Assembly (NCBI GenBank): GCA_947174565.1 | Contig: CAMWJL010000013.1 | Span: 1 to 37,178 of the forward strand | Direction of reading: 5' to 3' | Source of the DNA: an uncultured Prevotellaceae bacterium | GTDB taxonomy: Bacteria; Bacteroidota; Bacteroidia; Bacteroidales; Bacteroidaceae | DNA: 37,178 nt | Part shown: positions 6,848 through 31,064 of the stretch, piece after piece | Position numbering within the stretch: the stretch's first letter is position 1 | Layout of the letters: each line of letters begins with the position of its first letter | Notes under the pieces: generated by a model | Seen by the model: the letters and a program-made list of their open reading frames with translations, nothing else | What the model was told of the DNA's origin: nothing | Database searches by the model: none | Made by a program: the position numbers and the translations under genes

Positions 6848-6855
6848 CAAAGTTA
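6848..6855 (-). promoter_or_regulatory. Candidate -7 box for the AspT/YidE transporter gene
   Basis: TAACTTTG on the minus strand matches TAnnTTTG exactly and includes the TAA stop of the GH28 gene. The region where a -33 TTTG is expected has no good match. Initiation here would give a leader of about 50 bases. Confidence 0.4.
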
Positions 6856-11415: not shown

Positions 11416-12132
11416 TTATAATGTGATTGCAGTTTCAAGTGCCAAAGTCATCATTTCTGTGAAGGAATTTTGGCGTTGCTCAGCTGTAAGTTCTTGTGAA
11501 TCAACGAATGAATCGCTGATGGTGAGCAGGCAGGCGGCATGTTTGCCCAGTTGACGAGCATTGTGGAAAAGGGCAAAGCTTTCCATCTCCACACAATCCG
11601 TTCCTGTACGTTCAGCGATGTCTTTCCATGTGCCTTGCGACGGGTCGGCATAGAACACGTCGCTGGAATGGACGATGCTCTTTTTGCAGGCGATGCCTAA
11701 TTCGTTGGCTTTCTTTTCGATGGCGTTGTTCAGCTTCTCACTCGGCTTGATGCTGTGTGAGGTTTCGCCACCTTGCAGTTTGGCGAAGGTGGAGTCGCTG
11801 TAGGCACTGTCTGCCAAGGTGACATCCATTACTTTCAGCCATGGGCGGTAGCTGCCAGCCGAACCGATGCGGATGATGTTCTCCACGCCATAGAAGTGGT
11901 ATAACTCATAGGAGTAGATGCCGATGCTGGGCATGCCCATGCCGCTTGCCATTACAGAGACGGGTACGTCATGATACAGACCTGTATAGCCCAATACGTT
12001 ACGCACGGCAGTGACCAGACGGGCATCGGTCAGAAAGTTCTCGGCAATATACTTTGCTCTCAGGGGGTCGCCCGGCATGAGGACGGTCTTGGCAAAAGCG
12101 TCATCGGGGGCTGAAATGTGTGGTGTAGCCAT
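11416..12132 (-). CDS. deoD: Purine nucleoside phosphorylase, DeoD type
   Basis: 238 residues, the usual length of hexameric bacterial purine nucleoside phosphorylase. The enzyme converts purine (deoxy)nucleosides and phosphate into free base and (deoxy)ribose-1-phosphate in cytosolic salvage. Landmarks: N-terminal MATPHISAP with the substrate His, the phosphate-loop MPGDPLRAKYIAE (about 19-31), GMGMPSIGIYSYEL (63-76), IRIGSAGS (about 86-93), VEMESFALF near 176-184 with the nucleoside-binding Glu, and the late SDSFVD region. A near-ideal Bacteroidetes promoter lies upstream. The coding frame is intact. Its position ahead of a secreted HExxH protein and a GH28 enzyme, with no visible promoter between, suggests an unusual mixed transcript. 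Confidence 0.97.
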   Translation of the reverse strand: MATPHISAPDDAFAKTVLMPGDPLRAKYIAENFLTDARLVTAVRNVLGYTGLYHDVPVSVMASGMGMPSIGIYSYELYHFYGVENIIRIGSAGSYRPWLKVMDVTLADSAYSDSTFAKLQGGETSHSIKPSEKLNNAIEKKANELGIACKKSIVHSSDVFYADPSQGTWKDIAERTGTDCVEMESFALFHNARQLGKHAACLLTISDSFVDSQELTAEQRQNSFTEMMTLALETAITL

Positions 12133-12404: not shown

Positions 12405-12452
12405 TCGGAAAAGAGAAAGGGGACATGCCGTGTTGGAAAGGCATGTCCCCTT
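12405..12452 (-). terminator. Intrinsic terminator of the FAS1/SusCD operon
   Basis: Perfect 13-bp inverted repeat: arms 12417-12429 and 12440-12452 with a 10-base loop. On the minus strand the stem is followed by a pyrimidine run rich in T (12405-12416). It begins 53 bases after the stop codon of the last operon gene. Confidence 0.8.
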
Positions 12453-12505: not shown

Positions 12506-14707
12506 CTATTTTGGAACAGCGAAGTACCAGTTCGTCTGGTTCTTCAGCTTGGCATAGAGGTCGGCATTGTAGCCTTCCACGCCTGCGGCTTGCGACGTAG
12601 GTGCTTTGGTGCCGCGGTTGGCTATCTTCTTGGCGAGCCATTCTGTACCATCAAATCCAGCAGCGTTCTTGTGCTCGGCAATGCGCACCAAGTCCGTGAA
12701 GCGGTTGCCCTCAAAAGCGGTCTCCAGTGCCAACTCATCGACGATGATGTTCTCCACGGCATTGATGGAGTCTTGTAGTGCAGGGTTAGCGTTGTCTCCC
12801 AACTGCAAGTTTAACAGACGGTCGTAGTCATAGTAGGTGCGATCGTAGTTGCCGCCAATGTTGGTGATGATGTTCTTGGATGAACTGAGGTCGTTCATGC
12901 CCGTACCTCTGGCATGAATGCCGTAGGTTTCGTTCCACATATCGTCGCTGAAGTCAAGGAACTTGTTGAAGTCTTTCAGGCGAACGGAGTCGGTGACATA
13001 GTACATGGCATTTTCGTCATTGTAGAGGAGTTTGCCGATGGTGTCTTGATAAACGACGTAGTTCTCCTTGATTTCCTCGTCGGTCAGGCTGCACGCTGCA
13101 AAGTCGCCGTTTTCGCCCTTCTCGAAGAAGGTCTTGTCATCTGGGTTCAGGTAGATGAAGGTGTTAGCCTCTGTCTTGTGCGTGTAGATTTGGTAGCCGA
13201 AATCTTCCTCAAACTTGTCGATGTATTCTTTGCCAATGGTTGGCAGGGTATATTTGTTGATGCCGTCTTTGAGTATGGCAAACGCAAATTCGGGGTAGCC
13301 GGCACGGTTGATGGCTTCTGCCATGCGAAGCCACACGAGTGTCTTGCGGTAGGTCGGTATCGTATAGTAGAACGTGCCGCCACGGGCTGCCTTGCAACAA
13401 AGTGGGTATGCCTCGTTCAGACCCTGCTCATTGGCGTAGGTGTACGGTTCTACCGAGCCATAATAACGGGCATCGCAGTTCTCGATGGCAGTCGCCTCGG
13501 TCTCGCCGCTGGAGGTGTTGATGACGCGCTGGCGCAGATAGGTCTGCTGATTCACCACGTCTTGGTAGGCGTTGGACGGAGCATATTGACGCTTGTTGGT
13601 GCGAGTTACCTGGATGGCACCTGAAGATTGGTCTTCGTCCTCGGCGTTGCTTTCAGTGGAAGAACTGTCTGTCGTGCGCTGGGATGAAGAGGTGCTATAG
13701 CCGAAGATGTCTGCTACACGGGTGAGCATCTTGCCATAACCGGCATTGGCAGAACTTGGAATCATGGAGATAAGCTCGCTCGTTCTGCTGTTGACGTAGG
13801 TGGATGCCCATCTGCCCCATTCCGTTGGTCCCATGATACCGTCTGCTTCAAAGCTGTTTGCGTCTATCACACCGTTGCTGCTGCGACCAAAGTATGCATA
13901 GCATTGGTTAGGCTGTGGGGTTTCCTCTCGCTTCAAGAACTCGTAATAGTATTGAGCGGCCTTTGCGTAGTCGTTGCTGTTTGCACCACGCAACAAATAG
14001 AGGTCGCCCAACACGACACGGACTGGAATCATAATCAGGCGATTGCTTATCTCGACCGCACCGTTGTTCAGCGTTCCAAAGGCTTCGGTATTGGAGCCGC
14101 CATGTTGTGGATAGCGCATATCTACAAAGTTCTGTAGTCCATCTTCCAGTATCTTGTCAATCAGGTTGTCTTTGTTGACGACATCGTTGTCATAGTCGAA
14201 GTTCTCGACAATGCTTAACTTGTCGATGGGCTTAGTGATATAAGGCACTTCTTTGTAGTTCTTGACCAGTTGCAGGTAAGCCCAAGCACGGATGGTCTTG
14301 ACCTGTGCATACTCTGGGAGCATGTACTTGATGTTGGATTTCAGCTGGTTGGTGTCGGCATAGTGAATGTAGAAGTTGCAGTTGTTGATGATGTTGTAGT
14401 AATCGCGAATCTGCAACATGGAACAAGTGCCGTCCTGTGGATTTTCAAAGTTGGAGATGGCGTACAGTGTATCTGTGGTATATTGGGTTGATGAGACAAG
14501 GTCGCCACGGATTTCTCCAAGGATGATTTGACGCTCTGCCACATCCTGCATGGCACGCATGATGCCACGGTAGGAGTAGAGCGTGTCTTGTGCATTTCTG
14601 TATGCTTTGTCGCCTGTATCGACTGTCATCATGTCCTCGCAGGATGTTGACACGGCACCTGTGGCAATGATGGCTGCTATGGCGATGGTTTTCAATATAT
14701 TCTTCAT
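12506..14707 (-). CDS. SusD/RagB-family outer-membrane lipoprotein (second pair)
   Basis: 733 residues, longer than most SusD proteins (500-600). A lipoprotein signal ends VSTSC (Cys23), followed by acidic residues (CEDMM). Helical TPR-like core features typical of SusD/RagB are visible: IRDYYNIINNCNFYI (100-114), VKTIRAWAYLQLVKNYKEVPY (136-156) and, near the C-terminus, LALETAFEGNRFTDLVRIAEHK, the standard family motif. A Ser/Thr/Glu-rich segment (about 338-364) looks like a flexible insertion. SusD proteins bind the substrate at the cell surface and form the lid of the SusC channel. The gene starts 12 bp after its SusC partner and is the last of the operon. The ligand is unknown. Confidence 0.93.
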   Translation of the reverse strand: MKNILKTIAIAAIIATGAVSTSCEDMMTVDTGDKAYRNAQDTLYSYRGIMRAMQDVAERQIILGEIRGDLVSSTQYTTDTLYAISNFENPQDGTCSMLQIRDYYNIINNCNFYIHYADTNQLKSNIKYMLPEYAQVKTIRAWAYLQLVKNYKEVPYITKPIDKLSIVENFDYDNDVVNKDNLIDKILEDGLQNFVDMRYPQHGGSNTEAFGTLNNGAVEISNRLIMIPVRVVLGDLYLLRGANSNDYAKAAQYYYEFLKREETPQPNQCYAYFGRSSNGVIDANSFEADGIMGPTEWGRWASTYVNSRTSELISMIPSSANAGYGKMLTRVADIFGYSTSSSQRTTDSSSTESNAEDEDQSSGAIQVTRTNKRQYAPSNAYQDVVNQQTYLRQRVINTSSGETEATAIENCDARYYGSVEPYTYANEQGLNEAYPLCCKAARGGTFYYTIPTYRKTLVWLRMAEAINRAGYPEFAFAILKDGINKYTLPTIGKEYIDKFEEDFGYQIYTHKTEANTFIYLNPDDKTFFEKGENGDFAACSLTDEEIKENYVVYQDTIGKLLYNDENAMYYVTDSVRLKDFNKFLDFSDDMWNETYGIHARGTGMNDLSSSKNIITNIGGNYDRTYYDYDRLLNLQLGDNANPALQDSINAVENIIVDELALETAFEGNRFTDLVRIAEHKNAAGFDGTEWLAKKIANRGTKAPTSQAAGVEGYNADLYAKLKNQTNWYFAVPK

Positions 14708-14719
14708 GATTCTATCGTA

Positions 14720-17700
14720 TTACAAGTTGATTTTTACACCGAGATTAAAGCTTCTGTTGACAGGGAGCATGCCTGTGTCTATGCCTTGGTAGAGCACGCT
14801 GTTGCCACATGAGAACTCTGGGTCTTTGCCTGTATATTTTGTCAGTGTGACCAGATTGTTGGCTTCTGCCCAGATGGTAAGACCCTGAATCCACGAAGCG
14901 TTGATGGGCCATTCGTATGAAAGGCGAACTTTCTTCAGCTTGAGGAAAGAACCGTCTTCAATCCAACGGTCGGAGAAACGTTCGTTGTTCACCCATTCCT
15001 CTGACTCTGTGGACATGGCACGGGGCAGAAGGGCACAGTCGCCTTCTGATGTCCAACGATTCACTGCTGCGGTGGTTTGGTTGTAGAATGTGTTGAGCGA
15101 CTCCAGTCTCGAACGCTGATAGTTGTAGATGTCGTTGCCGAGAGAATACTTGAAGTTGATGTCAAGACTCCAGCGTTTATATGAGAGGTTGGTGTAGATT
15201 GTACCGTAGATGTCGGGGTTTGGATTGCCAATCACGGTTCTGTCATGGGAGTCAATCACACCATCGTTGTTCATATCTACAAAGTGAATGTCGCCTGATG
15301 AGAAATTACGATAGGGAGTCTCTTTAATACCAGTAGGATACTTCAAGTAACCGTCTTCTGTCTTGGTCGTTGCATGGCTTGCAGCTTCGTCGGTAGAGAA
15401 GACACCTGCGGTCTTGTATCCATAGAAAACACCTGCTGACTGACCAACAGCCGTAAGAACCTCAGCACCATAGATTGTCTGTGTGTAGTCGCCTTCTGGC
15501 AGAGAGGTGAGCTTGTTCTTGTAATGTCCCATGGTGGCACCGAGTTGCCACTTAAAGTCTTTTGTGTTCGCCAAGATGACGTTCATTTTGACATCTACGC
15601 CGACATTGCGGAGAGAACCGTCATTGCTCAGATAGCTTTTCAAACCAGAAAGATAGCCTATGCTCTTGGGAGTAATCAGGTTGTCGGTGTTGGAGACATA
15701 GAAATCAGCACCTGCCTGAATGCGGTTTTGGAAGAACGAACCATTCAGTCCCACGTTCCAACGGCGAGTCGTTTCCCACTGGAGAGAAGGATTCTCGATA
15801 TTGGCAAGCTGCAACGCTGTTGCTGTTCTTAGGAACGTGTAAGACTTGAAGTAGGTGCGAGCTGCTGAATAGTCGAAGTTGTCATTACCTGATTCGTCAT
15901 AGCCCACAGTCAGTTTCAGATAGTTGATACCGCTGTTTTTCGGCATCCACTTTTCGTTCGTGATGACCCATCCTGCTTGGAGGCTGGGGAAGATGCCCCA
16001 TCTTACACCAAAGAGTTTGATGCCTTCTGCGGCGTCAGAACCGAAGCGTGATGATGTTTCGGCTGACAGCGTGCCTTCAAGAATGTAGGTGTTCTTGACT
16101 GACCATCGTCCGAAAAGGTAGTAAGCCAAGTTGTTCCAACCGTCTTGGTTGCCTTCCACAGATCGGTAAGTGGCTGTCATGTTAGGCATCTTGTCGTTAC
16201 CAGGGTTGTAGGAACGCATGTATGAATCAGAGAAACGGTTGCTGGTGAAGCGGACGCCACCGAATGCCATCAAATCGTGCATGCCATAGTTGGCTGACCA
16301 ATTGGCACGGAGGTCTTCGTAAATGGATGTCTCTTTGGAGAAGAGTGATTTCACCATGGATGTGACGAGACCATAACCCTCATAGTTGAAGTAAGGGCTA
16401 CCAGCATTGGGGAGGAAGTACTTTTCGTTGGAACGGTTCAACTGATAGGCGAAACGGTTCGTGAGATAGAAGTGCTTGCTGATTTCCCATTTGGGCATGA
16501 TATTCAGGTTGAATTGAGTCACTTCTTGGCGATTCTTGTTGTCGCCTTCACCATTTTGGAGAATCCAGTAGGGGTTGGCAAGAGCTGTGTTCGTGCCATA
16601 GAGTGAGGCAAAAGCGAACGGGTAAGTGTCGTCATCGACATACTTGCCAGCATATGTGGTGGAGAGGTGCAGTTGCCCGTCGTCGCCTGCATAGTAGCCA
16701 TACTTGGACAGGAATGGTGCCTGTATGAGACCGAGCACGTTAGGGGCTGCAATGGTTTGAGTTGTATAGGACTCTGCCCATCCATTGTCGCGAAGATTGT
16801 AGGCGAGTTTGGAGTAGGAGAGGTCAAGTTGTGTAGAAAGGTTCTTTATCAGTTTGATGTCGGTGTTGAAGCGAATGTTCAAACGGTCGAAATCATTGCT
16901 CTTGGCAGTTGACGCTGAGTTTGTATAGCCCAATGCAAGGTTGTACATAGCCACATCGTCACCGCCTTGTACGCTGATTTTGTAGTTTTGTGTAGTCGCT
17001 GTTTGGTAGAGACCATCTGACCAGTCCGTTTCGTTGTGGTACATGGGATACCAGTAATAGGACGGGTTGCTGTTTAAGAAGGGGATGGACGCATTCGCAG
17101 TTGTGTGTTCAGAGCCATAAGTGGTTGTTCCCATCAAATCGCTGAGGTAATTGCGGTACTGATTTGCGTTCATCATCGGAGTGAGGGAAGGCTTGAGTTC
17201 AAAGCCGATATTGGCGCTGACGTTAATCTTTGTTGCCATAGAATGACCGCGTCTGGTGTTGATAAGCACCACGCCGTTGCCACCACGGGAGCCGTAAAGG
17301 GCGGTAGCATTTTTCAGAACTTCTACAGATTCAATGTCTTCTGGGTCAATGCCTGCCAAAATGTTGTTGAAGAAACCTTCGTGGATGCTGGTTCGGTCAA
17401 GTTGAGGATCCATTATCATACCATCGAGGATGATGAGTGGCTGTGCATTGATGTTGAGCGAGTTGAGACCTCGGATGAACATCGCTACGCCTTGACCGCG
17501 CAGACCTGAGCGGTTGATGGTGTGGATGTCGCCCGACAACAGGTGGTCTATTTCTTCGTCTGCAACAATGGCAGATGTCGTTTCAACCGTCGCTTTGCCT
17601 GTGGCAGTGATGTTCGTGGTGGGCGCATAGGCCTTGTTGAAGATGCTGCTATACAGTCCTACTGATGGGGCTGTGGCATTATCAAAGCTGGTTTGAACGT

Positions 17701-18025
17701 CATTGTAACCAGGGACGGTGATGTAGAGCGAATTGACGAAGGTTGGCACTTTGAGTGTGTACTTACCATCTTCACTGGTCATGACGGCATATCGGTCGTA
17801 ACCGTATGCTTGCACTCTTGCACCATCGATGGGCTGTCGGGTGGCGGCATCATAAACATAACCGCTTACCTCTTTCATCTCATATTGAGGTGCTTGAGCC
17901 GTAGCTCGGACAGGCTTGGCGGGGGCTTCTGTTGCTTCTTGGGCACACAGGGTCGTTACTCCTGATAACATCATGAGTCCGAGACCAAGGCGAAGCATGC
18001 CTATATGTATATTTTGATTTTTCAT
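14720..18025 (-). CDS. SusC/RagA-family TonB-dependent outer-membrane channel (second pair)
   Basis: About 1101 residues from ATG 18025, whose product (MKNQNIHIGML...) begins with a normal signal peptide ending LCAQ; an in-frame start 14 codons upstream lacks one. Domains: an acidic/Pro-rich linker, a carboxypeptidase-D-like beta-sandwich (about 38-110, SGYVYDAATRQPIDGA), a plug domain with the SusC signatures FIRGLNSLN, PLIILDG and LKNATALYGSRGGNGVV, and a 22-strand barrel ending FNLGVKINL. The protein imports substrate across the outer membrane using TonB energy. It follows the third FAS1-like lipoprotein gene with a 55-bp gap, the widest in the operon. It is clearly diverged from the other SusC of the operon, so the two pairs may take different ligands. 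Confidence 0.94.
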   Translation of the reverse strand: MKNQNIHIGMLRLGLGLMMLSGVTTLCAQEATEAPAKPVRATAQAPQYEMKEVSGYVYDAATRQPIDGARVQAYGYDRYAVMTSEDGKYTLKVPTFVNSLYITVPGYNDVQTSFDNATAPSVGLYSSIFNKAYAPTTNITATGKATVETTSAIVADEEIDHLLSGDIHTINRSGLRGQGVAMFIRGLNSLNINAQPLIILDGMIMDPQLDRTSIHEGFFNNILAGIDPEDIESVEVLKNATALYGSRGGNGVVLINTRRGHSMATKINVSANIGFELKPSLTPMMNANQYRNYLSDLMGTTTYGSEHTTANASIPFLNSNPSYYWYPMYHNETDWSDGLYQTATTQNYKISVQGGDDVAMYNLALGYTNSASTAKSNDFDRLNIRFNTDIKLIKNLSTQLDLSYSKLAYNLRDNGWAESYTTQTIAAPNVLGLIQAPFLSKYGYYAGDDGQLHLSTTYAGKYVDDDTYPFAFASLYGTNTALANPYWILQNGEGDNKNRQEVTQFNLNIMPKWEISKHFYLTNRFAYQLNRSNEKYFLPNAGSPYFNYEGYGLVTSMVKSLFSKETSIYEDLRANWSANYGMHDLMAFGGVRFTSNRFSDSYMRSYNPGNDKMPNMTATYRSVEGNQDGWNNLAYYLFGRWSVKNTYILEGTLSAETSSRFGSDAAEGIKLFGVRWGIFPSLQAGWVITNEKWMPKNSGINYLKLTVGYDESGNDNFDYSAARTYFKSYTFLRTATALQLANIENPSLQWETTRRWNVGLNGSFFQNRIQAGADFYVSNTDNLITPKSIGYLSGLKSYLSNDGSLRNVGVDVKMNVILANTKDFKWQLGATMGHYKNKLTSLPEGDYTQTIYGAEVLTAVGQSAGVFYGYKTAGVFSTDEAASHATTKTEDGYLKYPTGIKETPYRNFSSGDIHFVDMNNDGVIDSHDRTVIGNPNPDIYGTIYTNLSYKRWSLDINFKYSLGNDIYNYQRSRLESLNTFYNQTTAAVNRWTSEGDCALLPRAMSTESEEWVNNERFSDRWIEDGSFLKLKKVRLSYEWPINASWIQGLTIWAEANNLVTLTKYTGKDPEFSCGNSVLYQGIDTGMLPVNRSFNLGVKINL

Positions 18026-18080
18026 GTTCTTGCTATTTATATAAGTTTTTGGGGAGCATTGTTCCAAGTACTTCGGAGTT

Positions 18081-19955
18081 CTACCATTCTTTGGGCTTCA
18101 TGATGATGGAGTTAATCCAAAGTTCACGACAGTATTCCTTCTCTGTTGACTTGGGTTTGCTTTCAATCTCGATGACAGGATAGGCGTTGTCTCCGAGTCC
18201 ATCATAACAGACGGGGAATTCAAAATCTTTGGCAACACAGATGGTGTCTGTATAATCGACATTGCCATAAGCGTTGAAATGCACGCCACGGTTGACAAAG
18301 TTGTTCGTGTTATACAATGAATCACCTTGTGCATCGACGGCATCTTCAGAAGGGTTCTTGAATTTCTCATTTTTGACTCGTTTGCTTTGCTTGTCGTCAG
18401 CCATCTTGTCGTAGGAGATAGAAACCGAGAACTTGTTGGGTTTCTCCAAATCTGTGTTGTAATTAACGACGACATAGATGTCGTACTTGCAGGATTGGAC
18501 ACTTGATAGCATGAAATCTACCTTGGGATTGCTGGAACTTGACTTGTTCACAGCCTTGTAGATGCGGTACTTAAAGGTTGAGTCTGGCTGAATTTCTTCC
18601 TCTCCAATCGTGACGGTTGGGTTGATATACGTCAGTGAGGTGAAACCAGAACGGTTCTCATTGATGGTCTTTGTATCCGCATACTCTAAATTGAGTTGGT
18701 CAAGGGTTGGAGCGTAGATTGTGTATGGGTAGGGGAACTTATCGACAATGTAAGCATACCCATTGCTAAGCGTAACGGGCTCTACATTACCAAACATGTC
18801 GGCATAACTGTCTATCTCTATTGCACGCATTGCACGATCTTCGGCGGTGAGTGTACCTTTTTTCTTGAACTTTCGATCTATTGTTGAATAGAGAGAATCA
18901 CCCTGTTCATCCAACTTCTTAATGTCGTCCAGCGTTGCGATGGGAACATTCCTATATTGCCAGTTTGCGTTGAAGACAAGTTCGCGGCAGATGACATTCT
19001 TTGATGCGAAATTGACGAGTGAGTCCAGCTCTTCATCCGTGAATGTTGTCTCTTTGGAGTAAGTGGCATCCCCACCTGTTTCGCTGGTTGTGTGAAAGTC
19101 TTGTTTATAACTCTTCGCTCTTTTAAAGTATTGCTGTGTTTTCTCTAAGACTTCATCCCAAGCATCATTGGTGAGAAGAATCGCCGCATAGTTGGAATCT
19201 TCACGTTCCAAGAATGCACGGAGATAATAGCTCGTGTAGTCATTTGAAGTGGTAGTAACAGAATCAACCCATGTGATTTTGCCATCAATCGTAGGACCTT
19301 GTGTAGAAGCATACTCGTCGAACTCGGTCTTTTGGTATTTCTTGATGAACTCATTCATGCCGCTGAGGTCATCACGCGTGTCCAGATATTCGTAAAGATT
19401 GGGCAGATATTTCGTGGGCTGTGCCAAAATGTGAAGCGCACCATTGGACACTCTCACATTTGGTTCTGTCATAGCAATGCCTTGGAAAGTGCCTTCATCA
19501 AAGTTTAGCCATGCAGACTTATTGTTTAAGAGATTCACTTTCGCTGAACCTGTGCCAATAGCTGAACGGCTATAGCGGGTCATGTTGTTGCGAAGTAATT
19601 CTTGCTCAACCTTGTAAATGCTGTCTCTGATACCAGATTCTATCAATCCTTTATAGTAATTGTAGTTGAATGAACCATTGGTGGGAGCCCAAACGGTGAA
19701 TGTCTGTGCATTGTTCAGCAGGTCGGCATAAGTCTCAGGTGTCGTTTTCTGCTCGTTCTTTGAGTAATAGACATTCTGCAAGATGTCGGCAAATTCGCTG
19801 AGCCGCTCATCGGCTTGAATAGTCTTCCATATCGTCTGCTTGCTTGTTGCATCAGACGTGATGTCAAAATGATCATCGGAACAGGCACTGATGCCCGCAG
19901 CTAACGCTACAGTCATCAATGAACCCGTGAACCATTTTATATTGTTGATTTTCAT
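18081..19955 (-). CDS. FAS1-like surface lipoprotein with C-terminal beta-rich domain
   Basis: 624 residues from ATG 19955 (MKINNIKWF...); an upstream in-frame start would overlap the preceding gene and spoil the signal. The lipobox gives Cys25, followed by SDD, consistent with Bacteroidetes surface export. Two divergent fasciclin-like modules are seen: about 33-182 (TIWKTIQADERLSEFADIL, then TFTVWAPTNGSF) and about 184-450 (LYEYLDTRDDLSGMNEFIKK, then YAAILLTNDAWDEVL). The last 170 residues look like a beta-sandwich and end near ELWINSIIMKPKEW. The position between another FAS1 lipoprotein and a SusC/SusD pair points to a surface glycan- or protein-binding role. FAS1 assignment rests on these boxes only and is weaker than for the neighbours. 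Confidence 0.82.
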   Translation of the reverse strand: MKINNIKWFTGSLMTVALAAGISACSDDHFDITSDATSKQTIWKTIQADERLSEFADILQNVYYSKNEQKTTPETYADLLNNAQTFTVWAPTNGSFNYNYYKGLIESGIRDSIYKVEQELLRNNMTRYSRSAIGTGSAKVNLLNNKSAWLNFDEGTFQGIAMTEPNVRVSNGALHILAQPTKYLPNLYEYLDTRDDLSGMNEFIKKYQKTEFDEYASTQGPTIDGKITWVDSVTTTSNDYTSYYLRAFLEREDSNYAAILLTNDAWDEVLEKTQQYFKRAKSYKQDFHTTSETGGDATYSKETTFTDEELDSLVNFASKNVICRELVFNANWQYRNVPIATLDDIKKLDEQGDSLYSTIDRKFKKKGTLTAEDRAMRAIEIDSYADMFGNVEPVTLSNGYAYIVDKFPYPYTIYAPTLDQLNLEYADTKTINENRSGFTSLTYINPTVTIGEEEIQPDSTFKYRIYKAVNKSSSSNPKVDFMLSSVQSCKYDIYVVVNYNTDLEKPNKFSVSISYDKMADDKQSKRVKNEKFKNPSEDAVDAQGDSLYNTNNFVNRGVHFNAYGNVDYTDTICVAKDFEFPVCYDGLGDNAYPVIEIESKPKSTEKEYCRELWINSIIMKPKEW

Positions 19956-19972
19956 ATTCTTTATATTATTGA

Positions 19973-22111: not shown

Positions 22112-22122
22112 AATTCAAACAG

Positions 22123-24033
22123 TTATAAATCTTCCGTTCTTGAAGATGTCTCGTTGACTGACCACACACCATTCTGGTAGAGCCAGCTGTTATTCTTAAT
22201 TTCGGTGTTGTAGATAGGCGAGAAGAGCGACTGTATATGAGCCAGTTTTACTTTGATGGAGTTCATGTCGTCTGTTTTCTTCTTGCTGTAAATCTTCAAC
22301 ATTTCTGCGGTTCCTCCTCTTCTCAACGCATAGCGTACAAGGTCAAACCAACGTTTGCCTTCTCCATAGAACTCACGTTGGCGCTCATTCAGAACAAGAC
22401 GTTCCAATGCTTCTTGGGTCTTGAAGTTTTCAGGCTTCAGAGAGTCATTTCGTGCATTGGTATTATGCTGTTTGTCATAAGCGTATGGATTGGAACGCTT
22501 GAAAACATCACGCACATAGTGAAAGCCCTCTGTCAGATTCTCTTCATCATCGTATCGCTGTGATATGGCTTCCGCTTTCATCAAGAAGATATCGGATATA
22601 CGATAGAAAATCCAGTTGGCATTATTCGTAGAGCGTACCGACTGACCGATGTTGCCAGTGGTGAGACTCTTATCTTTGTTGGATGTCAGGTAAGCATCCT
22701 TGCTGAGAGGTCCTTGCTGTGTAATGGTTGAATATACATATTTTGCGATGTTGAAGCTCTCTTGGGTACTGGTAAAGATGAAGGAATTCCAACGGCGGTA
22801 GTCTGTCTTTGAGAAGACATAATCCGACTCAATGTTGGGATTCTCGTTGGCATCATTAAAAAGACTTGTAGTTCCTGTAAACACTCCAGCTTTTCCCTCT
22901 TTTGTGGAAAAAAGATTCCCCACCATGGTGTTCTGACAAGATACACCATCTACTTGCAACTCGAAGATGGATTCGGTGGAGTTTCCCTGTCCGAAAATCC
23001 GAGTGTAAGCAGAAGGACTTATATTGTATCCTGTTTTTTTATTCACGTTGGCAATCAGCAAGTCCTCCTCTGTTAGTGATGTGAGGTCTTCCATTGGGTC
23101 ATCTTTTAGTGTTCTGTCTGCCAATTCCGACATCTTGATGTCGAGAACCTTGTTACAGTAGATAATACAAGCGTCGTAGTCTTCTTCAGCAGTCGTTGTG
23201 TATGCCTCTTCGCGCTCGAGGTTGTTCACTTCTGTCTTGGCATCATTGATTTTCAAACCCTTAAATTCGCCATTATAGTTTTTCGCGAGCGTTATCTTTG
23301 TGAAAGGATGGTTGTTACCCGTCTTGTAAGAGGCACGCCACAGGTAGGTATCTGCCAGAAGTGCATAGATGGCTTGGCGAGTAATACGTCCCTTGTTCTG
23401 AGCCGTAGTGCCATAATCTATAGGTGCATTCTCCATGACTGATTCCAAGTCGTCAATAATGTTGTTGAGCACGGTCAGTAGTGTTGATTGTGCTTGGCGG
23501 AGTTCCTGTGAGTCGTTGTTATAATCTGTTGTCACATAAGGCACTTCGCCAAAGGTGCGTACTAAATAGAAGTGGCATAATGACCGTAGGGCTATCACTT
23601 CAGCCTTGATTGGTCGCCATTGGGCTTCTGAAAAACTTTGGTCTTTCAGAACAATTTCAGGACCATGCGCCAGCACCTTGTTGCAATAGTTGATAGCATT
23701 ATAGACGGCTGTCCAGTTAAACTGACCGTAGGTCGGAAGAAGGTTTGCCTTGATGATATTTGCATCGTTGTCGGAGCTGTTGGTCGAACGCTCAAAGTTA
23801 TCAGAACGTTCCTCGCCCCAATAGATATATCTTATTAACATGTCATTCTCGGCCATACGTCTATAACATGCCATGACGGCATTGTCTAAGTCGTTTTTGT
23901 CTTCCCAGAACTCTTCTTCCACGATGCGGTCTGTTGGGGTGATAGTCAAGAAGTCCTCACAGGAGGAGAACCCTAAACCTGTACCAGCCACAATCAGTCC
24001 GCAGAGGGTGATATTTTTAATGATATTCTTCAT
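22123..24033 (-). CDS. SusD/RagB-family outer-membrane lipoprotein (first pair)
   Basis: 636 residues. Signal peptide ends FSSC (Cys25), followed by EDFLTITPTDR, the classical SusD N-terminus. Family landmarks: FWEDKNDLDNAVMACYRRM (43-61), YNAINYCNKVL (110-120), IKAEVIALRSLCHFYLVRTFGEVPYV (about 142-167) and the late LVLNERQREFYGEGKRWFDLVRY motif, which is nearly diagnostic. It caps the SusC channel encoded 12 bp upstream and binds substrate at the surface. It is only distantly similar to the other SusD of the operon, which argues for two ligands rather than a recent duplication. Confidence 0.95.
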   Translation of the reverse strand: MKNIIKNITLCGLIVAGTGLGFSSCEDFLTITPTDRIVEEEFWEDKNDLDNAVMACYRRMAENDMLIRYIYWGEERSDNFERSTNSSDNDANIIKANLLPTYGQFNWTAVYNAINYCNKVLAHGPEIVLKDQSFSEAQWRPIKAEVIALRSLCHFYLVRTFGEVPYVTTDYNNDSQELRQAQSTLLTVLNNIIDDLESVMENAPIDYGTTAQNKGRITRQAIYALLADTYLWRASYKTGNNHPFTKITLAKNYNGEFKGLKINDAKTEVNNLEREEAYTTTAEEDYDACIIYCNKVLDIKMSELADRTLKDDPMEDLTSLTEEDLLIANVNKKTGYNISPSAYTRIFGQGNSTESIFELQVDGVSCQNTMVGNLFSTKEGKAGVFTGTTSLFNDANENPNIESDYVFSKTDYRRWNSFIFTSTQESFNIAKYVYSTITQQGPLSKDAYLTSNKDKSLTTGNIGQSVRSTNNANWIFYRISDIFLMKAEAISQRYDDEENLTEGFHYVRDVFKRSNPYAYDKQHNTNARNDSLKPENFKTQEALERLVLNERQREFYGEGKRWFDLVRYALRRGGTAEMLKIYSKKKTDDMNSIKVKLAHIQSLFSPIYNTEIKNNSWLYQNGVWSVNETSSRTEDL

Positions 24034-24045
24034 GTGTCGTTGTTT

Positions 24046-27000
24046 TTAGAATCCAAGATTTACACTAAGCGTTACAGATTTAGCACGTGGGGTCTTGCTG
24101 TTGTCTATACACATACTGTATTGGCTGTATGATACCTCAGGGTCTATACCCGTATATTTTGTCAGCACGAAAAGGTTGTTGGCTGAGGCGCTGATTCGTA
24201 GTGACTGAACTCCCAAGTCTTTACAAACTTTATTAGGAAGCGAATAACCCAACTGCATGTATTGCAAACGAAGGAAATCACCTTTTTCGATATAGCGGTC
24301 GCTTGCCAAAGAGTTATAGGAAGGACCGATTTTCTCGTTCATGGCACGAGGAATCTCGGTGATATCCCCGTTCTTGCGCCAGCGCCATGCTACAGCCTGC
24401 GACTGGTTCTTGTTCGTAAGCATCGATTCATTCAATAAGCGCGCAACATTGGCGATTTTGTTGCCCATACGGTAGTTGAATGAGAGTTTGAGTGTCCACT
24501 GTCCATAGTTGAAGTTGAATCCAAATCCACCAGTTATCGTTGGAAGAGAATTACCTAAATATACGATGTCAAGTTCATTGATTTGACCATCGTGGTTAAT
24601 GTCTTCGTAGATGACATCGCCACCTTGGAACTCGTAGTTTTGTCCTCCATAATTAAAGTACATGTGCAATGGATTGCCCTTGGAATCATAGATGATGTTG
24701 CCTGCAGCATCGCGTACAATAGGTGTAGTGGCATTCTCACCACGTTCTGCGGCTGCCGCTGCTGTTTTATCACCATAAGTGTCGCGTGACAGTTGTGTGT
24801 AGCCGCTATGCTCATAGTCGTAACGGTAAACACCTTTATAGCGGAATCCGTAGAAAGAACCCAGTGCATTGTTCACTTGAATGCGCTTCAGGTAATTATC
24901 TCCTGCGGTGGCATTCTTATAGGTGAAATCTTTGTTGATGTTGGCAAGAACGGTTGGGTCCATGTCTGTGATAGTCTGGAAGTTCTGTGCAAAGTTAAGA
25001 GTGGCAGACATCGAGAACTTTCCTCTCTTGAGGAATTTGCCCGTGTTTACATAGAGTTCCCAACCATGGTTGCGCATACCTCCATCATTCTTGTACGTTA
25101 AACTGTTATAGCCCGAAGTGCCAGCGACTCCGAAATTGCCCATCAATACATTGTCTGTCTGTCTGTTATAGTAGTTGAAGTCGAACTGCAACAGGTCATT
25201 GAACAGATTCAAGTTTGCACCGATGTTCCAAGCTGTCGTCGTTTCCCACTTGAGGTCGGTCAGTCGGAGTGACTCTGGCGCAATAGCTTCACCTATTGTG
25301 CCATACGAACCAGTATTTTTGTATTTGTTATACATCAAATACTCTGCCGCAGGAGGGTTTCCGTTCTTACCCCATGATGAGCGGAATGCCAGCATGGATA
25401 CAACTTTTTCAATGTGCAGACTCTCGAAGAATGGTTCTTGATTGATGTTCCATCGTACAGAAAGACCAGGGAAATTACCCCATTTGCGACCTGCACCGAA
25501 TCGTGTGGAACCATCTCGACGCAAAGTGGCGTCAAAAGAATAACGACCATCATAGAATGCAATATGCGCACTGGCAAGCATGGAAGCACCACGCCACTGG
25601 CTCGTTCCTGAACCTGCTCCAGTCAAGTATGCAGAAGCAACAGACGATGTGATGCCCGTAGGTACACCGCTATGACCAATGTTTTGGGATGTGCCGTTTC
25701 CTGTTGTGAACTCAAACTGCCCCATGACGCTGGCGGTTACCACGTCTGTGTTGAAGTGTGGAACAAAAATCAATTTCTCGCGATTGGTGAAGGCCAATGA
25801 TTTGTATTCATTGTTGGATGTCGTGTTGACACCGCTGGCCCACGAGTCGGTCGTCAGTGAAGCGGGATAATAGGTGTTCTCTGACTGGTTGTAGATGTCC
25901 ATATAAACCTCTGCATTCAAATCCAGCTGGTGTCCTTCGTCATCTTTCGACAACAGTTTGTATCGGAGATTGAACTGTGGTATGATGCGGTAAGTTGATT
26001 GGTTGTTAAAAGCCTGATTCGCAATAGCAACAGGGTTACCAATCGCCTTCATATCGCTGAGATAGTTGGAAGAATAGTAGTTGTCGCCACTTGCCCCAGT
26101 GGTAGGGTTGGTGGGCAACATCTTGTAGTAGTCGCCCGTCTTGTTTCCATTCTGGTCATACTCGTAAATAGACATGTTTGGCATGGCATCATACGCTTTG
26201 CCCAAAATAGAAGACGTGGAACTTCCATCCCAATTACGTTGCCAATCCGTGTAGGTAAGGGCAAAGTTACTTGAGAAGCGAATGCGGTCAGACACGTCAT
26301 AGTCGAGCACCAAACGCGTGTTGAAACGGTCAAGAGTCTGCTGGATGATTGTACCTGTCTGATGGTAGTAACCGCCAGAAATACGGAATCTTGCCTTTTC
26401 GCCACCACCATTCAAAGCAATGGTGTAATCGTGGGTCTGTCCAAATTGGTTGACAGCATCTACCCAATCCGTGTTCTTGTTGAAGTTGTAGTACTGCGTT
26501 GGCATGGAACGGTCGTAATTCAACTCCACCATATCGGAAGAATTGGGGTTCTGTTTAGGGTTGAAGTATGCCTCTTTCAGCATCATGGTGTAACCATCAC
26601 CATTCAGCATGTTGAGTCCTTCCGGTGACCATGAACCTGTGAATTTATAGGAGAAATTGATTCTCGTCTTACCCGCAGTACCACGGCGAGTGGTGATTTC
26701 GAGCACACCATTAGCACCTTTTGAACCCCAGATAGCTGTTGCGGCAGCATCCTTCAGCACTTTGATTTCCTTGATGTCTTCAGGGCTGATAGAGAGGAGG
26801 GTAGAGAACTGCTCCTCGTTGTCCAGATTCTCAAAATCAACTTTTTGTACGTCGGCAGGCAGCTCGAAGATGTTGCCATCCACTACAATGAGCGGCTCGG
26901 CCGAACCATGGATGGAGCTGACACCACGCAAGCGCATTGATGTTCCTGCACCCACGTTACCCGAGTTTGCAACGATGTCGAGACCTGCAATCTTTCCTTG

Positions 27001-27456
27001 AAGGGCTTCGTCAGCAGAAGCGAAGGAAAGACCTTCCACTTCATCCATGCTCATGGTTTGTGTAGCCACAGAGATTTCCTTCAAAGGGATGGACATACCA
27101 TTGCTTTGGACTTTGGGCTTGGCGTTCACCACCACTTCCTGCAGTTGGGTATTTTCTTGCAGGCGGATATTGAACTTGGTTGTGTTGCCGATGACTTGGC
27201 TCCAAGTCTTGTAACCGATGTAGCTGACTACCAGCTTGTCCTTTGGATTCTTGATGACCATCGAGAAGTTGCCGTTGATGTCTGTCACAGCAGCCTCTAC
27301 GATACGGTTGTTATTGTCTCGCTCCACAACGTTTGCCATCATCACGCCGCCCATGTCGTCATAGACGTAACCCGTGATGCGTCGCTGCTGAGCCATAGCT
27401 GAACTTACACAGAAGAACAGCACGAGAGAAGTAAGAATGATTTTAGTCTTGTTCAT
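24046..27456 (-). CDS. SusC/RagA-family TonB-dependent outer-membrane channel (first pair)
   Basis: 1136 residues with a signal peptide (1-22, ending AMAQ). Domains: carboxypeptidase-D-like beta-sandwich (25-105, ITGYVYDDMGGVMMANVV), the LQEVVV segment, plug domain (about 125-260; MRLRGVSSIHGSAEPLIVVDG and LKDAAATAIWGSKGANGVLEI) and a barrel to the C-terminal SVTLSVNLGF. It is the energy-dependent importer of the first SusC/SusD pair. It starts 17 bp after the four-module FAS1 lipoprotein and 12 bp before its SusD, so co-transcription is near certain. Confidence 0.96.
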   Translation of the reverse strand: MNKTKIILTSLVLFFCVSSAMAQQRRITGYVYDDMGGVMMANVVERDNNNRIVEAAVTDINGNFSMVIKNPKDKLVVSYIGYKTWSQVIGNTTKFNIRLQENTQLQEVVVNAKPKVQSNGMSIPLKEISVATQTMSMDEVEGLSFASADEALQGKIAGLDIVANSGNVGAGTSMRLRGVSSIHGSAEPLIVVDGNIFELPADVQKVDFENLDNEEQFSTLLSISPEDIKEIKVLKDAAATAIWGSKGANGVLEITTRRGTAGKTRINFSYKFTGSWSPEGLNMLNGDGYTMMLKEAYFNPKQNPNSSDMVELNYDRSMPTQYYNFNKNTDWVDAVNQFGQTHDYTIALNGGGEKARFRISGGYYHQTGTIIQQTLDRFNTRLVLDYDVSDRIRFSSNFALTYTDWQRNWDGSSTSSILGKAYDAMPNMSIYEYDQNGNKTGDYYKMLPTNPTTGASGDNYYSSNYLSDMKAIGNPVAIANQAFNNQSTYRIIPQFNLRYKLLSKDDEGHQLDLNAEVYMDIYNQSENTYYPASLTTDSWASGVNTTSNNEYKSLAFTNREKLIFVPHFNTDVVTASVMGQFEFTTGNGTSQNIGHSGVPTGITSSVASAYLTGAGSGTSQWRGASMLASAHIAFYDGRYSFDATLRRDGSTRFGAGRKWGNFPGLSVRWNINQEPFFESLHIEKVVSMLAFRSSWGKNGNPPAAEYLMYNKYKNTGSYGTIGEAIAPESLRLTDLKWETTTAWNIGANLNLFNDLLQFDFNYYNRQTDNVLMGNFGVAGTSGYNSLTYKNDGGMRNHGWELYVNTGKFLKRGKFSMSATLNFAQNFQTITDMDPTVLANINKDFTYKNATAGDNYLKRIQVNNALGSFYGFRYKGVYRYDYEHSGYTQLSRDTYGDKTAAAAAERGENATTPIVRDAAGNIIYDSKGNPLHMYFNYGGQNYEFQGGDVIYEDINHDGQINELDIVYLGNSLPTITGGFGFNFNYGQWTLKLSFNYRMGNKIANVARLLNESMLTNKNQSQAVAWRWRKNGDITEIPRAMNEKIGPSYNSLASDRYIEKGDFLRLQYMQLGYSLPNKVCKDLGVQSLRISASANNLFVLTKYTGIDPEVSYSQYSMCIDNSKTPRAKSVTLSVNLGF

Positions 27457-27473
27457 AATGTTCTATGTAAGTT

Positions 27474-30400
27474 TTATTTTGCAAGTTGATACTTTTTGAG
27501 ATAGGCGCGTGCCTTGGCAAGCGTTTGCCAATCTGAATCATAGCGGCCATTTGTGAGTGTTTTATAGTGTAACACACCGTCCAATCCATGGATGACAGCT
27601 GAAGAACTTGACAGAATCTTTGTCTTGACCACCGCCAGTGAGCCTCCTGCATCGTTTGTGATGTAGTCGCGTGCGAGGAAGTTGAGCAATGTCGGATTGG
27701 TTGTACAAGAACTTCCTGTGCAGTCGGTCACTTTTATGGTGCCGTCACTTTCGCGCGATGTAGTCACTTTGAAGTAGATGCCTGTCTTGCTGTCCATCGT
27801 TCCTGTTTCGTAGGCCGTTGGGTTCATGGCTAAAGGCTCTGAATAGACGCTGTTGTCTTGGAAGTGATACTTGACGAAGTTGATGATAGCGGCCGCCATC
27901 GCTTTTCCTTTGATTTTGCGGCTGTGCTCTTCCTCTTCATCAAGAATATCTCTGTCGTCTTCGTCTTTGTCCAACTGGAGCAGATGCTTGATGTCATCCC
28001 ATGTGGGAAGTCCCTTGCTTTCAGCTTCTTCCATTGCTGCGTTGGTTGGGATGTAGATGGTGTAGCGATAGTTGCTGAAGAAACGAATGTTGGTGTCGTC
28101 AGCCACTTTTGCCAATCTTCCTTCCTCGTTTACTGCATAGCAGGGAAGACCTGATGAGTTGGGGTCGAATATATAGTACTTGTTTCGTGCAGAAGGGTTG
28201 TTAATCTCCGTGCCATCTTCAGGGTCTATCTCCATGTTGACATCCAAAGCGTCTAAGACATCTTCTGGTGTTTGGCAGAGTGCGAAGAACTTGGAGAACT
28301 CTTCATTGTCGTGCATAATGGAATAAACCGATTCAATGGTTGGTATCATCGGCTTGTCAATCGTGTAAGCAAAACCGTTACCATAACCATTGGTTTGCGC
28401 AGACTTGTCGGCAAAACGAGTCACTGTGCAGTTGTCTTTATGGTCGAGTTGCCAGCCACCCTTGACAATCATGCCGTTAGCGCGGTCGGTTGCATTATCT
28501 ACATAGATGACGGCATTGTTTTTGGCGTAGAAATAGTGTCTACCACACTCTACACCTGTTTCTGTCTCATCAATGCCTGTGGCTTTGTTGTTCTCATGCA
28601 CAATGGTATGTGTCTCCAGCATGTCTTTCAGACGGTTGGAGAAAAACTCTCTGTCGATGGACTGATTGGCAGCTAACTTTGAACCGATGGAGCCAGTTTT
28701 GGTCGGCACGTCATAGAGATATTCGTAAGTTTCCACGGTGGGGTGTACCTTATCTTTGGTCTCGTCCCAAATGTATTTGTAGGCACGACCAACGAGTTGA
28801 GTAGTTCCACTCTTCACCGCATTGCTACCACGGAATGAAATAGGGTCGATATACCAGAACTCATCGTCGCTGGGCACAAAGAATGAGAAGCGTGAACTCA
28901 TCGAAAGCAGATAGCTGTCGTAGTAGGTCTTCAACGTGTTACCCGCGTCGAGGGTCATATCTTTAATGGCATATCGGAAAATGCGCTTGTCCGTTTCTGT
29001 AATGGCAGGTGCCAATACGGCTGCATAGGTAGGCGTTGTAATCACCTCATCCATCAGGTAGATGACACCGTTATTTGCCAGCAAGACCTTGTTGATTCTG
29101 CCACGGTGATAGTCATCATTTGCATCGAACATAGCATCCTGAGCTGTGTTCTTGATGCTCTCGAACTTGCTGGGCACACTGGCGATGAACGATTCCATCA
29201 TCAGATTGTTGATAAGCTCCTGAATCACATTGCGAGGAATCATGTCCAACGCCTTGTTGATAAGTTCCATGTCGGTGGGATGCTCTCCAAGTTCGCTCAG
29301 CATATCGGGTGCGTATGCTTGCATGAGGAAGTAGCCACCGCCATTGGGGCTAAAGAAATAGGGAATCAACTTCTCGTCGGTGGGGCAGAAGAAAGCCGCC
29401 ATGTCCTGCTCTTTGCTGAACAAGTCCACATTGTAGCCGTTCCATCCTGGGTCGAATTTCAAAGAATAATCAACGCGTTCTGTCAGATTTGGGTTGTCTG
29501 GGTCAGTGTACGCATTCAGCGGATTGCCGTTCTTGGAACGTTCAGAGAAGTAGCGTTTCTCATACACCTTCTCCACATCGTTGCCGTAGTTCAGCTGATA
29601 GCTGTAAGTGAGGTCGGCATTGTAGAACGGGGCAGAAAAACGATCCATCATGTGGCTGAAAATGTTGGTCATGCCATTGGTACGCAACAACTCTGCAATG
29701 TTGGGGGGGGTAAGAAGAACCTTGTCCAAACGGTTTACATAACCATTTTGGCAGGTGATGTCCTGCTCCAGCACTTTGCAATCGTAGATAAACGCATCGT
29801 TCTTATCGCGCGTCTGTCCTGTGATGATGTGGAAATCCTCGTCAGTGATGCTCTTCAATGCCATCTGTGCAGGCAAAAAGTGGGTCATCATCGCAGCGGT
29901 GTTGTCCAGTGCGATGTAGAGGTCTTTGTTGTTGTCGCGGTAAGGTGCCCAATAGTCCTTGTCCGTAGGATTGTAGGTGGTCGGCATGTCTTCGGGCAGG
30001 AGGTGGGGGACAGAGTCCAACACCGTTCCAGCCGTGTTGCGGCGCAGGCACTGTCCTTTCACGGGCGTGTCGTTCGTGCCGTTACCAGCCTGCATGCTCG
30101 ACATCATCTCCAGCAGATAGGCATTGTTAATCATGGCGTTGTTCAGCAGGAGCTTTTTCTGACTGAGGGTCAGTTCCGCATAGCTGTGAACACCCCATGG
30201 ATTCTCTTGATAGAAGGTTGTGAAAGCGTCGTCGTCGGCCACAAAGAGTGTCTTGGAGCCTGTGCGCGCTAACACCTCCTTATAGCCAAGGTCGTTGATG
30301 AGCTTGACGAAGTTGGTGTAATTGCCTTTGCTGTCAAGATACTCGTAGATGCTGGAACCGAGCCATGAGGGATTACCATCGTCCCACATGTAGTCGTCCT

Positions 30401-30485
30401 TACACGAGTAAGTCGAACCGCATACGGCAAATAGGAAGAATGCTTTGGCGGCATACCGTCCTAATTTACAAAAGCGTTTGTCCAT
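27474..30485 (-). CDS. Four-module FAS1 surface lipoprotein, first gene of the operon
   Basis: 1003 residues. The lipobox ends STYSC (Cys28), followed by KDDYMWDD, a strongly acidic surface-export signal. Four divergent fasciclin modules can be laid out by their H1/H2 boxes: about 43-260 (TLFVADDDAFTTFY, then GYVNRLDKVLLTPP), 262-487 (AAFFCPTDEKLIPYF, then VIYLMDEVITTP), 488-713 (FSFFVPSDDEFW, then GFAYTIDKPMIPT) and 715-972 (YTIYIPTNAAMEE, then AVIHGLDGVLHY). No enzyme motif is seen. FAS1 modules mediate adhesion and ligand binding elsewhere. As the leading gene next to SusC/SusD it most likely captures substrate on the cell surface. A run of eight C residues (minus strand, 29703-29710) lies in codons about 259-261. 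Confidence 0.88.
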   Translation of the reverse strand: MDKRFCKLGRYAAKAFFLFAVCGSTYSCKDDYMWDDGNPSWLGSSIYEYLDSKGNYTNFVKLINDLGYKEVLARTGSKTLFVADDDAFTTFYQENPWGVHSYAELTLSQKKLLLNNAMINNAYLLEMMSSMQAGNGTNDTPVKGQCLRRNTAGTVLDSVPHLLPEDMPTTYNPTDKDYWAPYRDNNKDLYIALDNTAAMMTHFLPAQMALKSITDEDFHIITGQTRDKNDAFIYDCKVLEQDITCQNGYVNRLDKVLLTPPNIAELLRTNGMTNIFSHMMDRFSAPFYNADLTYSYQLNYGNDVEKVYEKRYFSERSKNGNPLNAYTDPDNPNLTERVDYSLKFDPGWNGYNVDLFSKEQDMAAFFCPTDEKLIPYFFSPNGGGYFLMQAYAPDMLSELGEHPTDMELINKALDMIPRNVIQELINNLMMESFIASVPSKFESIKNTAQDAMFDANDDYHRGRINKVLLANNGVIYLMDEVITTPTYAAVLAPAITETDKRIFRYAIKDMTLDAGNTLKTYYDSYLLSMSSRFSFFVPSDDEFWYIDPISFRGSNAVKSGTTQLVGRAYKYIWDETKDKVHPTVETYEYLYDVPTKTGSIGSKLAANQSIDREFFSNRLKDMLETHTIVHENNKATGIDETETGVECGRHYFYAKNNAVIYVDNATDRANGMIVKGGWQLDHKDNCTVTRFADKSAQTNGYGNGFAYTIDKPMIPTIESVYSIMHDNEEFSKFFALCQTPEDVLDALDVNMEIDPEDGTEINNPSARNKYYIFDPNSSGLPCYAVNEEGRLAKVADDTNIRFFSNYRYTIYIPTNAAMEEAESKGLPTWDDIKHLLQLDKDEDDRDILDEEEEHSRKIKGKAMAAAIINFVKYHFQDNSVYSEPLAMNPTAYETGTMDSKTGIYFKVTTSRESDGTIKVTDCTGSSCTTNPTLLNFLARDYITNDAGGSLAVVKTKILSSSSAVIHGLDGVLHYKTLTNGRYDSDWQTLAKARAYLKKYQLAK

Positions 30486-30597
30486 AAAGGTTTGATATTG
30501 TTTTTAGTTTTAGTTTGTCTTGTTCCTTATTATATATGTATATTAGAGGAATGTCAATAGGTTAGTGGTATGCTGTTGCCTACCTGTAGCCAGCTTA

Positions 30598-30950: not shown

Positions 30951-30990
30951 CCGAAACACTTGTGCCTTGTCTGATGTGCATACAACGCAG

Positions 30991-31022
30991 AAGAGCCACG
31001 TCATATTGCTGACGTGGCTCTT
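30991..31022 (-). terminator. Hairpin terminator after the GH128-like gene
   Basis: Perfect 13-bp inverted repeat (30991-31003 and 31010-31022) with a six-base loop, starting 43 bases after the GH128-like stop codon. The following T-run on the minus strand is weak, so termination may be partial or assisted by the nearby palindrome. Confidence 0.65.
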
Positions 31023-31064
31023 CCTGTGGTTTGAGGGTGGCTGCTGCCACCTTGTATGTGTGTC

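Follow-up and report, generated by a model that had tools for sequence, protein, structure and literature searches.

We describe seven consecutive genes of an uncultured Prevotellaceae bacterium, which we read, with a probability of roughly 60%, as one discrete, old outer-membrane cassette that captures and imports a complex glycan, most likely a pectic or otherwise uronic-acid-rich ligand of plant or algal origin. The genes lie on contig CAMWJL010000013.1 of assembly GCA_947174565.1 (2.8 Mb in 187 contigs), which was analyzed as one whole stretch of 37,178 bases (the window). They run on the minus strand from position 30485 to 12506 in the order F1-C1-D1-F2-F3-C2-D2, that is, FAS1-SusC-SusD-FAS1-FAS1-SusC-SusD. 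An earlier reading of the contig, made from the letters alone (the sequence-only reading), had named the same direction and order, and both were confirmed by the open reading frames (ORFs) and by Pfam, NCBIfam and profile searches. We observe the gene content, the FAS1 folds in the models of F1 and F2, the constant order, the correlated descent of the genes, two separate SusC lineages, presence or absence of the cassette as a unit, and enzymes that recur next door.

Gene content and protein families

The genes are tightly spaced. Counted from the first possible start codon, the intergenic gaps are 17, 12, 11, -7, 13, and 12 bp; with F3 and C2 starting at their first ATG, the F2-F3 gap becomes 17 bp and the F3-C2 gap 55 bp, the latter being the single wide gap of the sequence-only reading. 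Because of this spacing, a single transcript for all seven genes is likely. The good terminator reported after D2 was found again as a stable hairpin followed by the T-rich tail TCTCTTTT (Table 1); the pattern scan did not list it because its loop of 10 is longer than the scan permits.

F1, F2, and F3 are predicted surface lipoproteins. Pfam scores given here come from single-sequence searches, and sensitivity was raised by comparing profiles built from relatives with the PDB. F1 belongs to the Fasciclin family PF02469 (1.8e-12, 48 bits, cut-off 22), and its profile matches solved FAS1 structures at 9e-22. Its model (predicted local distance difference test score, pLDDT, 86.6; predicted template modelling score, pTM, 0.81) has the four FAS1 modules that had been counted in one of these proteins, at about residues 45-255, 263-480, 485-710, and 716-970, and is aligned by Foldseek with TGFBIp across 962 columns (1e-17). 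Human TGFBIp and periostin are animal matrix proteins with the same four tandem modules, at 11-12% identity to F1; they are not known to have a lipid anchor or a transporter partner. Cys28 of F1 is invariant in 33 aligned rows. F2 is also a Fasciclin protein (3.4e-14, 53.5 bits, cut-off 22; profile against solved FAS1 structures, 2.6e-44). In its model (pLDDT 83.7), two FAS1 modules lie within about residues 41-455, and residues 464-702 resemble a beta-sandwich of carbohydrate-binding module (CBM) families 6/35, according to Foldseek and VIA-align. As the models of both F1 and F2 match TGFBIp and periostin, structure prediction, a check suggested with the sequence-only reading, gave FAS1 folds for both. 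F3 scored below the Fasciclin cut-off of 22 bits when scanned alone (0.0014, 19.3 bits) and reached 22.1 bits when scanned with neighbouring stretches; its profile, built from 30 relatives, matches periostin at 2.8e-35 and places it among FAS1 proteins, and N179-G180 and N406-G407 are invariant. The FAS1 assignment of the three proteins is firm, since the profiles of relatives match solved FAS1 structures.

C1 and C2 are SusC/RagA-type transporters, with TIGR04056 scores of 648 and 587 bits against a curated cut-off of 368. D1 is a SusD/RagB protein by both PF07980 (2.3e-20, 73.9 bits) and PF14322 (1e-19, 72 bits), each above its cut-off. D2 is more diverged: PF07980 just passes (4.9e-6, 26.8 bits, cut-off 23.1), PF14322 stays below its cut-off (18.8 bits, 27 required), and the D2 profile matches SusD structures in the PDB at 8e-14. 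Thus, three large FAS1 lipoproteins occupy places that usually belong to other surface glycan-binding proteins, and a single tight gene run holds two diverged SusCD pairs, as had been proposed. No enzyme was found among the seven genes in Pfam and NCBIfam scans of the window ORFs. None of the 18 window ORFs scanned with Pfam matched a regulator family above its own cut-off, the sole trace being a weak Transcrip_reg match at 3500-4276 (17.5 bits, cut-off 27).

Recurrence and joint inheritance

We examined 142 loci, several of which share one genome. The first 22 were the window, a copy on host contig C9, 18 stretches of genus relatives, and two of other genera; the next 40, including one from the host, were stretches from a search of the host's order; the last 80 were contigs of named genomes. 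The full seven-gene order was found in 66 loci, while 24 were truncated at the end of a contig or stretch, two were defective, with one gene lacking or broken (L120 and L041), and 50 had no SusCD partner, many of the latter being plain FAS1 genes. Most end-cut loci keep the matching partial order, with the exceptions of L070 and the pair L079/L082 (F2 after D2). This pair represents variant cassettes in which an additional F2-like gene comes after D2; in L082, three more ORFs on the same strand (554, 324, and 406 amino acids, aa) come next. L106 lacks a C1 call, as the ORF filter retained a long antisense ORF there. In the full cassettes, the median gaps are 9.5-23.5 bp.

The 66 full loci were picked out by having C1 second and C2 sixth. 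In addition, gene position in the first 62 loci was part of the training of the second set of role models, which makes order counts partly circular there; for these reasons, the independent count of the full order is 27 loci, all from contigs of named genomes. Role models built only from genus members had already yielded the identical order in genomes outside the genus. The carriers come from numerous families of the host's order, with a few more in Flavobacteriaceae; they are mostly uncultured lineages from animal guts and a few marine ones. They include Paraprevotella clara YIT 11840 (L142), assemblies labelled Prevotella, Prevotellaceae, and Bacteroidaceae, many of them from herbivore guts, one Muribaculaceae and one Prolixibacteraceae assembly, and, among Flavobacteriaceae, Leeuwenhoekiella nanhaiensis, Salegentibacter sp., and Algibacter miyuki. 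The recurrence of the order in such distant families is more than chance, and the locus is not the single oddity that it had seemed to be. A role in trypsin recruitment was considered for the P. clara cassette and rejected: cluster 03048-03053 was deleted in the trypsin work, but the effect came from 00502 and 00509, and fasciclin is unmentioned in the accessible part of that paper (PMC9477747).

The searches were centred on F2, and cassettes without F2 would be missed. As a check in one direction, 247 genomes of the order were compared with the D2 profile at 1e-40; 12 matched, all F2-positive, with D2 of distant cassettes out of reach and at most five candidates scored per genome. Of 295 genomes sampled from the class, six matched the F2 profile at the same threshold. 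Three of these six belong to other orders, and beyond the host's order the cassette is rare.

The host itself carries a second seven-gene cassette on contig C9, in identical order with gaps of 3-24 bp. Identity between the copies is 47 and 45% for the two SusC and 26-28% for F1, D1, F2, F3, and the longest D2 segment. A third F2-like gene of the host (L087, 201-3392, on contig C22; 1063 aa) has no SusCD neighbours. Solitary F2 genes are also seen in named relatives, L122 having two in tandem.

A quick tree was made for 65 SusC proteins: its 29 C1 and 29 C2 each form one group with support 100, apart from the seven other SusC. This suggests that the SusC pair is old and travels together. The two halves of the tree branch broadly alike, with some differences, and pairwise identities of the seven proteins correlate at 0.74-0.96 over the 66 loci; we take this as a sign of joint inheritance and not of physical contact, as shared species history contributes to it. 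Judged from these comparisons, the cassette is inherited jointly as an old unit. The Flavobacteriaceae rows nest among the others in the SusC tree, and hence transfer is as possible as common descent.

Within the genus, one site either holds the whole cassette or lacks it altogether, by repeated loss or gain. One member, G003, has the genes for an M64 peptidase, a Glyco_hydro_cc protein, a nucleoside phosphorylase, an HExxH protein, and a GH28 hydrolase in a row without the cassette (locus L252); at the empty site (11139-11149), the gap between the Glyco_hydro_cc and nucleoside phosphorylase genes is 9 bp, while the window has the 18-kb cassette there. The Glyco_hydro_cc and HExxH genes share a contig in 19 of 45 genus genomes: in eight the two are ~20 kb apart, in ten within ~1.4 kb, and in one (G005) ~65 kb. 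FAS1 matches lie between the two genes in seven of the eight; the eighth, G578, was assigned by spacing only. The empty site was read in sequence for G003 and deduced from spacing in the other genus genomes.

Neighbouring genes and flanking signals

Table 1. Cassette genes, their neighbours, and flanking signals in the window.
Feature	Position	Strand	Remarks
F1, surface lipoprotein (predicted), four tandem FAS1 modules	27474..30485	-	1003 aa
C1, SusC-type TonB-linked outer-membrane transporter, first lineage	24046..27456	-	1136 aa
D1, SusD/RagB lipoprotein	22123..24033	-	636 aa
F2, surface lipoprotein (predicted), two FAS1 modules and C-terminal CBM6/35-like beta-sandwich	19973..22111	-	712 aa
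F3, surface lipoprotein (predicted), N-terminal FAS1 and second FAS1-type NG motif	18081..19979	-	632 aa; first ATG 24 bases inside
C2, SusC-type transporter, second lineage	14720..18067	-	1115 aa; first ATG 42 bases inside
D2, diverged SusD-family lipoprotein	12506..14707	-	733 aa
Terminator hairpin after D2	12417..12452	-	-24.5 kcal/mol, z -6.95; then T-rich tail TCTCTTTT
Promoter-like TTGACA-17-TATAAT upstream of F1	30529..30557	-	12/12 consensus matches; consensus only
TATATTTG	30605-30598	-	~40 bases further upstream than the TTGACA-17-TATAAT site
Hairpin between Glyco_hydro_cc gene and F1	30990..31023	-	30985-31030: -28 kcal/mol, z -6.5; T tail not clear
Glyco_hydro_cc (GH128/GH39-like) protein, neighbour, not member	31065..34028	-	PF11790 9.6e-15; H-type lectin match below cut-off
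M64-family peptidase, neighbour	34063..35514	-	PF09471 2.5e-67
Nucleoside phosphorylase, downstream-edge neighbour	11416..12132	-	PF01048 3e-35; adjoins Glyco_hydro_cc gene in G003
HExxH protein, neighbour	8218..11373	-	Pfam: nothing at 0.01
GH28 (pectin-type) hydrolase, neighbour	6853..8217	-	PF00295 9.9e-25

A polysaccharide utilization locus (PUL) combines SusCD with co-located carbohydrate-active enzymes. Here, these are the Glyco_hydro_cc and GH28 proteins, both encoded by adjoining genes and neither inside the seven. The claim of an enzyme-free locus therefore holds for the seven genes and fails beyond them, as enzymes recur next door. Of the regulators linked to PULs, neither hybrid two-component regulators (HTCS) nor extracytoplasmic function (ECF) sigma/anti-sigma factors were found above cut-off in the 18 window ORFs scanned, in line with the sequence-only reading; elsewhere, HTCS adjoin the cassette in two genomes, G212 and G202. 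In G034, two ORFs of 489 and 640 aa directly upstream of a cassette (L221, 2445-5833) cluster with HTCS.

The best solved relatives of the Glyco_hydro_cc protein are the beta-xylosidase 6yyh (2.5e-4) and the Glyco_hydro_cc protein 6ubd (5e-4), both distant, and the GH128 label given to it earlier is uncertain. In 38 cassette genomes, seven of the 16 Glyco_hydro_cc frames of 900-1030 aa lie directly upstream of F1, four of these in one genus and the rest in three more families; of the others, one is nearby and divergent (G144), one ends at a contig edge (G022), and seven are away from any cassette. The domain profile of the HExxH protein had no solved relative in the PDB at E 1. Its relatives are found near cassettes of other families (G147, G179, G255, and G144), with the motif itself seen in the first three. 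The Pfam domain Por_Secre_tail is present in several cassette neighbours of other genomes; in the window, neither the HExxH protein (searched at 0.01) nor the Glyco_hydro_cc protein (at E 1) gave such a match.

Flanking proteins of other cassettes were scanned as a selection, 28 singly and in sets of 50 and 59 with some overlap, and also include GH28, arabinofuranosidase, rhamnose genes, and HTCS. The picture is that of a constant core for capture and import next to changing enzymes, among which pectin-type ones recur.

The perfect TTGACA-17-TATAAT ahead of F1 is unexpected, as Bacteroidota promoters usually differ from it; in the region, 31 sites of this type were found against 26.1 expected. 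Further upstream is TATATTTG, presumably a Bacteroidota-type -7 element. At the contig end, two adjacent tyrosine recombinase genes lie on the minus strand (106-1443 and 1452-2816; Phage_integrase 1.1e-10 and 3.2e-11).

Function of the cassette and alternative readings

In the glycan-import reading, C1-D1 and C2-D2 would be two different SusCD importers, each a TonB-driven barrel with a lid lipoprotein. In place of the surface glycan-binding proteins of typical systems, F1, F2, and F3 would hold the polymer on the cell surface, or act as its scaffold there, and pass fragments to both importers; the cutting would be done by enzymes of adjoining genes. The two pairs may import different fragments. 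The ligand would be a pectic or other uronic-acid-rich glycan of plants or algae, possibly with an attached glycoprotein. We lean towards it because of the recurrent PL11, GH28, GH43, and arabinofuranosidase neighbours and the CBM-like end of F2. Of the enzymes expected for the rhamnogalacturonan I (RG-I) backbone, GH28 is encoded in the window and PL11 near some cassettes of other genomes: in five genomes, most of them preselected, five of 21 cassette SusD loci have PL11 within 15 kb, compared with one of the 64 SusD loci outside cassettes (one-sided p 0.003). Frames of ~1500-1600 aa with a PL11 (RGL11_C) match recur beside PL11 frames of ~600-750 aa (G259:C50, G065:C6, G147:C33, G147:C48, G144:C7, and others). 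As a lead only, the portion of a review that we could consult mentions a plant FAS1 protein proposed to act on the pectin network, which may touch RG-I (PMC6032426).

Several observations weigh against this reading. The PL11 test used five genomes, four of which were chosen once a link had been noticed; seven of the 38 cassette genomes have no PL11 match, and the four PL11 matches of the host are all off the cassette contigs. The neighbours vary, including sulfatase, acetylesterase, GH2, GH43, oligogalacturonate lyase-like, and housekeeping genes. One ligand for all copies of the cassette is thus unlikely, and a purely RG-I-specific system was dropped as a general claim. Glyco_hydro_cc and HExxH-type genes occur together with no cassette in view (G003, G034:C21, G218:C36), and in ten genus genomes they stand side by side. 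Full-length F2 genes occur without SusCD, which means that F2 can act apart from importers, and FAS1 also serves adhesion.

The strongest alternative is an ordinary PUL, in which FAS1 is one more surface glycan-binding fold and the tandem SusCD a known doubling of the xylan or arabinan type; it overlaps with the glycan-import reading and differs mainly in denying a distinct class. We consider it unlikely: enzymes and regulators are both absent inside the seven genes, the order is fixed across families while enzyme neighbours change, and all three non-SusCD lipoproteins are FAS1. Compared with SusCD importers and outer-membrane utilisomes of Bacteroidota, the cassette is similar in having two SusC, two SusD, and surface lipoproteins in the same gene run, and differs in its enzyme-free seven genes, FAS1 lipoproteins, and SusCD pairs of separate lineages. 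In favour of an ordinary PUL, HTCS flank some cassettes, and, according to the accessible parts of the respective papers, two susC-like genes are present in the arabinan locus of B. theta (PMC3243724) and a tandem SusC/SusD pair in the xylan locus of Segatella copri (PMC11784079). The latter locus shares two SusCD pairs with the cassette; it encodes GH10, arabinofuranosidase, GH5_21, and HTCS (PMC11784079), whereas in the cassette the two pairs are bordered and separated by three FAS1 genes (F-C-D-F-F-C-D).

A doubled RagAB-like importer of proteins or glycopeptides, in which FAS1 would grip the protein, M64 and HExxH enzymes would cut it, and SusCD would import the peptides, seems improbable. 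In its favour, M64 and HExxH genes lie on either side of the cassette both in the window and among genus relatives, relatives of the HExxH protein lie near cassettes of the other families named above, and animal FAS1 proteins bind matrix proteins. RagAB is a SusC/SusD-type pair without a glycosidase, as in the cassette, but a single pair without FAS1; RagA, a distant sequence relative of C1, is among its solved relatives but is not the best one. However, glycan enzymes are the commoner kind among the recognized neighbours in other families, the C-terminal fold of F2 is CBM-like, and G003 has M64, Glyco_hydro_cc, HExxH, and GH28 together without the cassette, so that M64 is not tied to it. Of the ligands suggested earlier, a glycoprotein or a beta-glucan, M64 and HExxH keep the former open, while the recurrent neighbours and the F2 end lean towards a pectic or acidic glycan. 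Least probable is an adhesion apparatus, with FAS1 lipoproteins tethering the bacterium to plant fibres or to other cells, while SusCD would only feed on material released nearby: FAS1 proteins of other organisms are linked to adhesion in the consulted portion of the review (PMC6032426), F1 has the architecture of TGFBIp and periostin, and F2 genes are found alone, but the FAS1 genes keep a fixed order and are inherited together with both SusCD pairs, which favours a single importing machine, and F1 or F3 adhesins would be expected to part from SusCD more often, as judged from F2-centred searches.

Overall, the earlier observations were confirmed and their interpretation was partly supported, a large surface complex and one transcript being plausible. 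SusCD, FAS1, and tandem SusCD pairs are already known, and the fixed seven-gene combination of them may be new. We found no published description of it in the open-access papers searched; subscription papers and preprints were outside the search, and absence is not proven. The accessible part of one paper describes a symbiont that has four SusCD pairs and a domain protein with high transcription, with fasciclin in a cited title and no statement on adjacency seen (PMC10199937), and that of another mentions fasciclin and SusD in separate contexts (PMC2668756). Tentatively, the cassette may represent an undescribed importer class: a double-SusCD machine whose surface layer combines a CBM-like domain with as many as eight FAS1 modules, moved as a unit by descent or transfer among Bacteroidota, beside changing enzyme sets, as one core for different acidic glycans. 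The machine may form a joint complex, its two SusC barrels importing different products of one polymer.

In the host, 18 proteins match TIGR04056, seven of them above the cut-off; as four of these seven belong to the two cassettes, the cassette may be a main route of polymer uptake in this bacterium. SusCD systems are the main means of fibre uptake in gut Bacteroidota, and this fixed seven-gene form uses the periostin-type FAS1 fold in place of other glycan-binding proteins. It opens to test both the ligands of bacterial FAS1 domains and the reason why some loci have two SusCD pairs.

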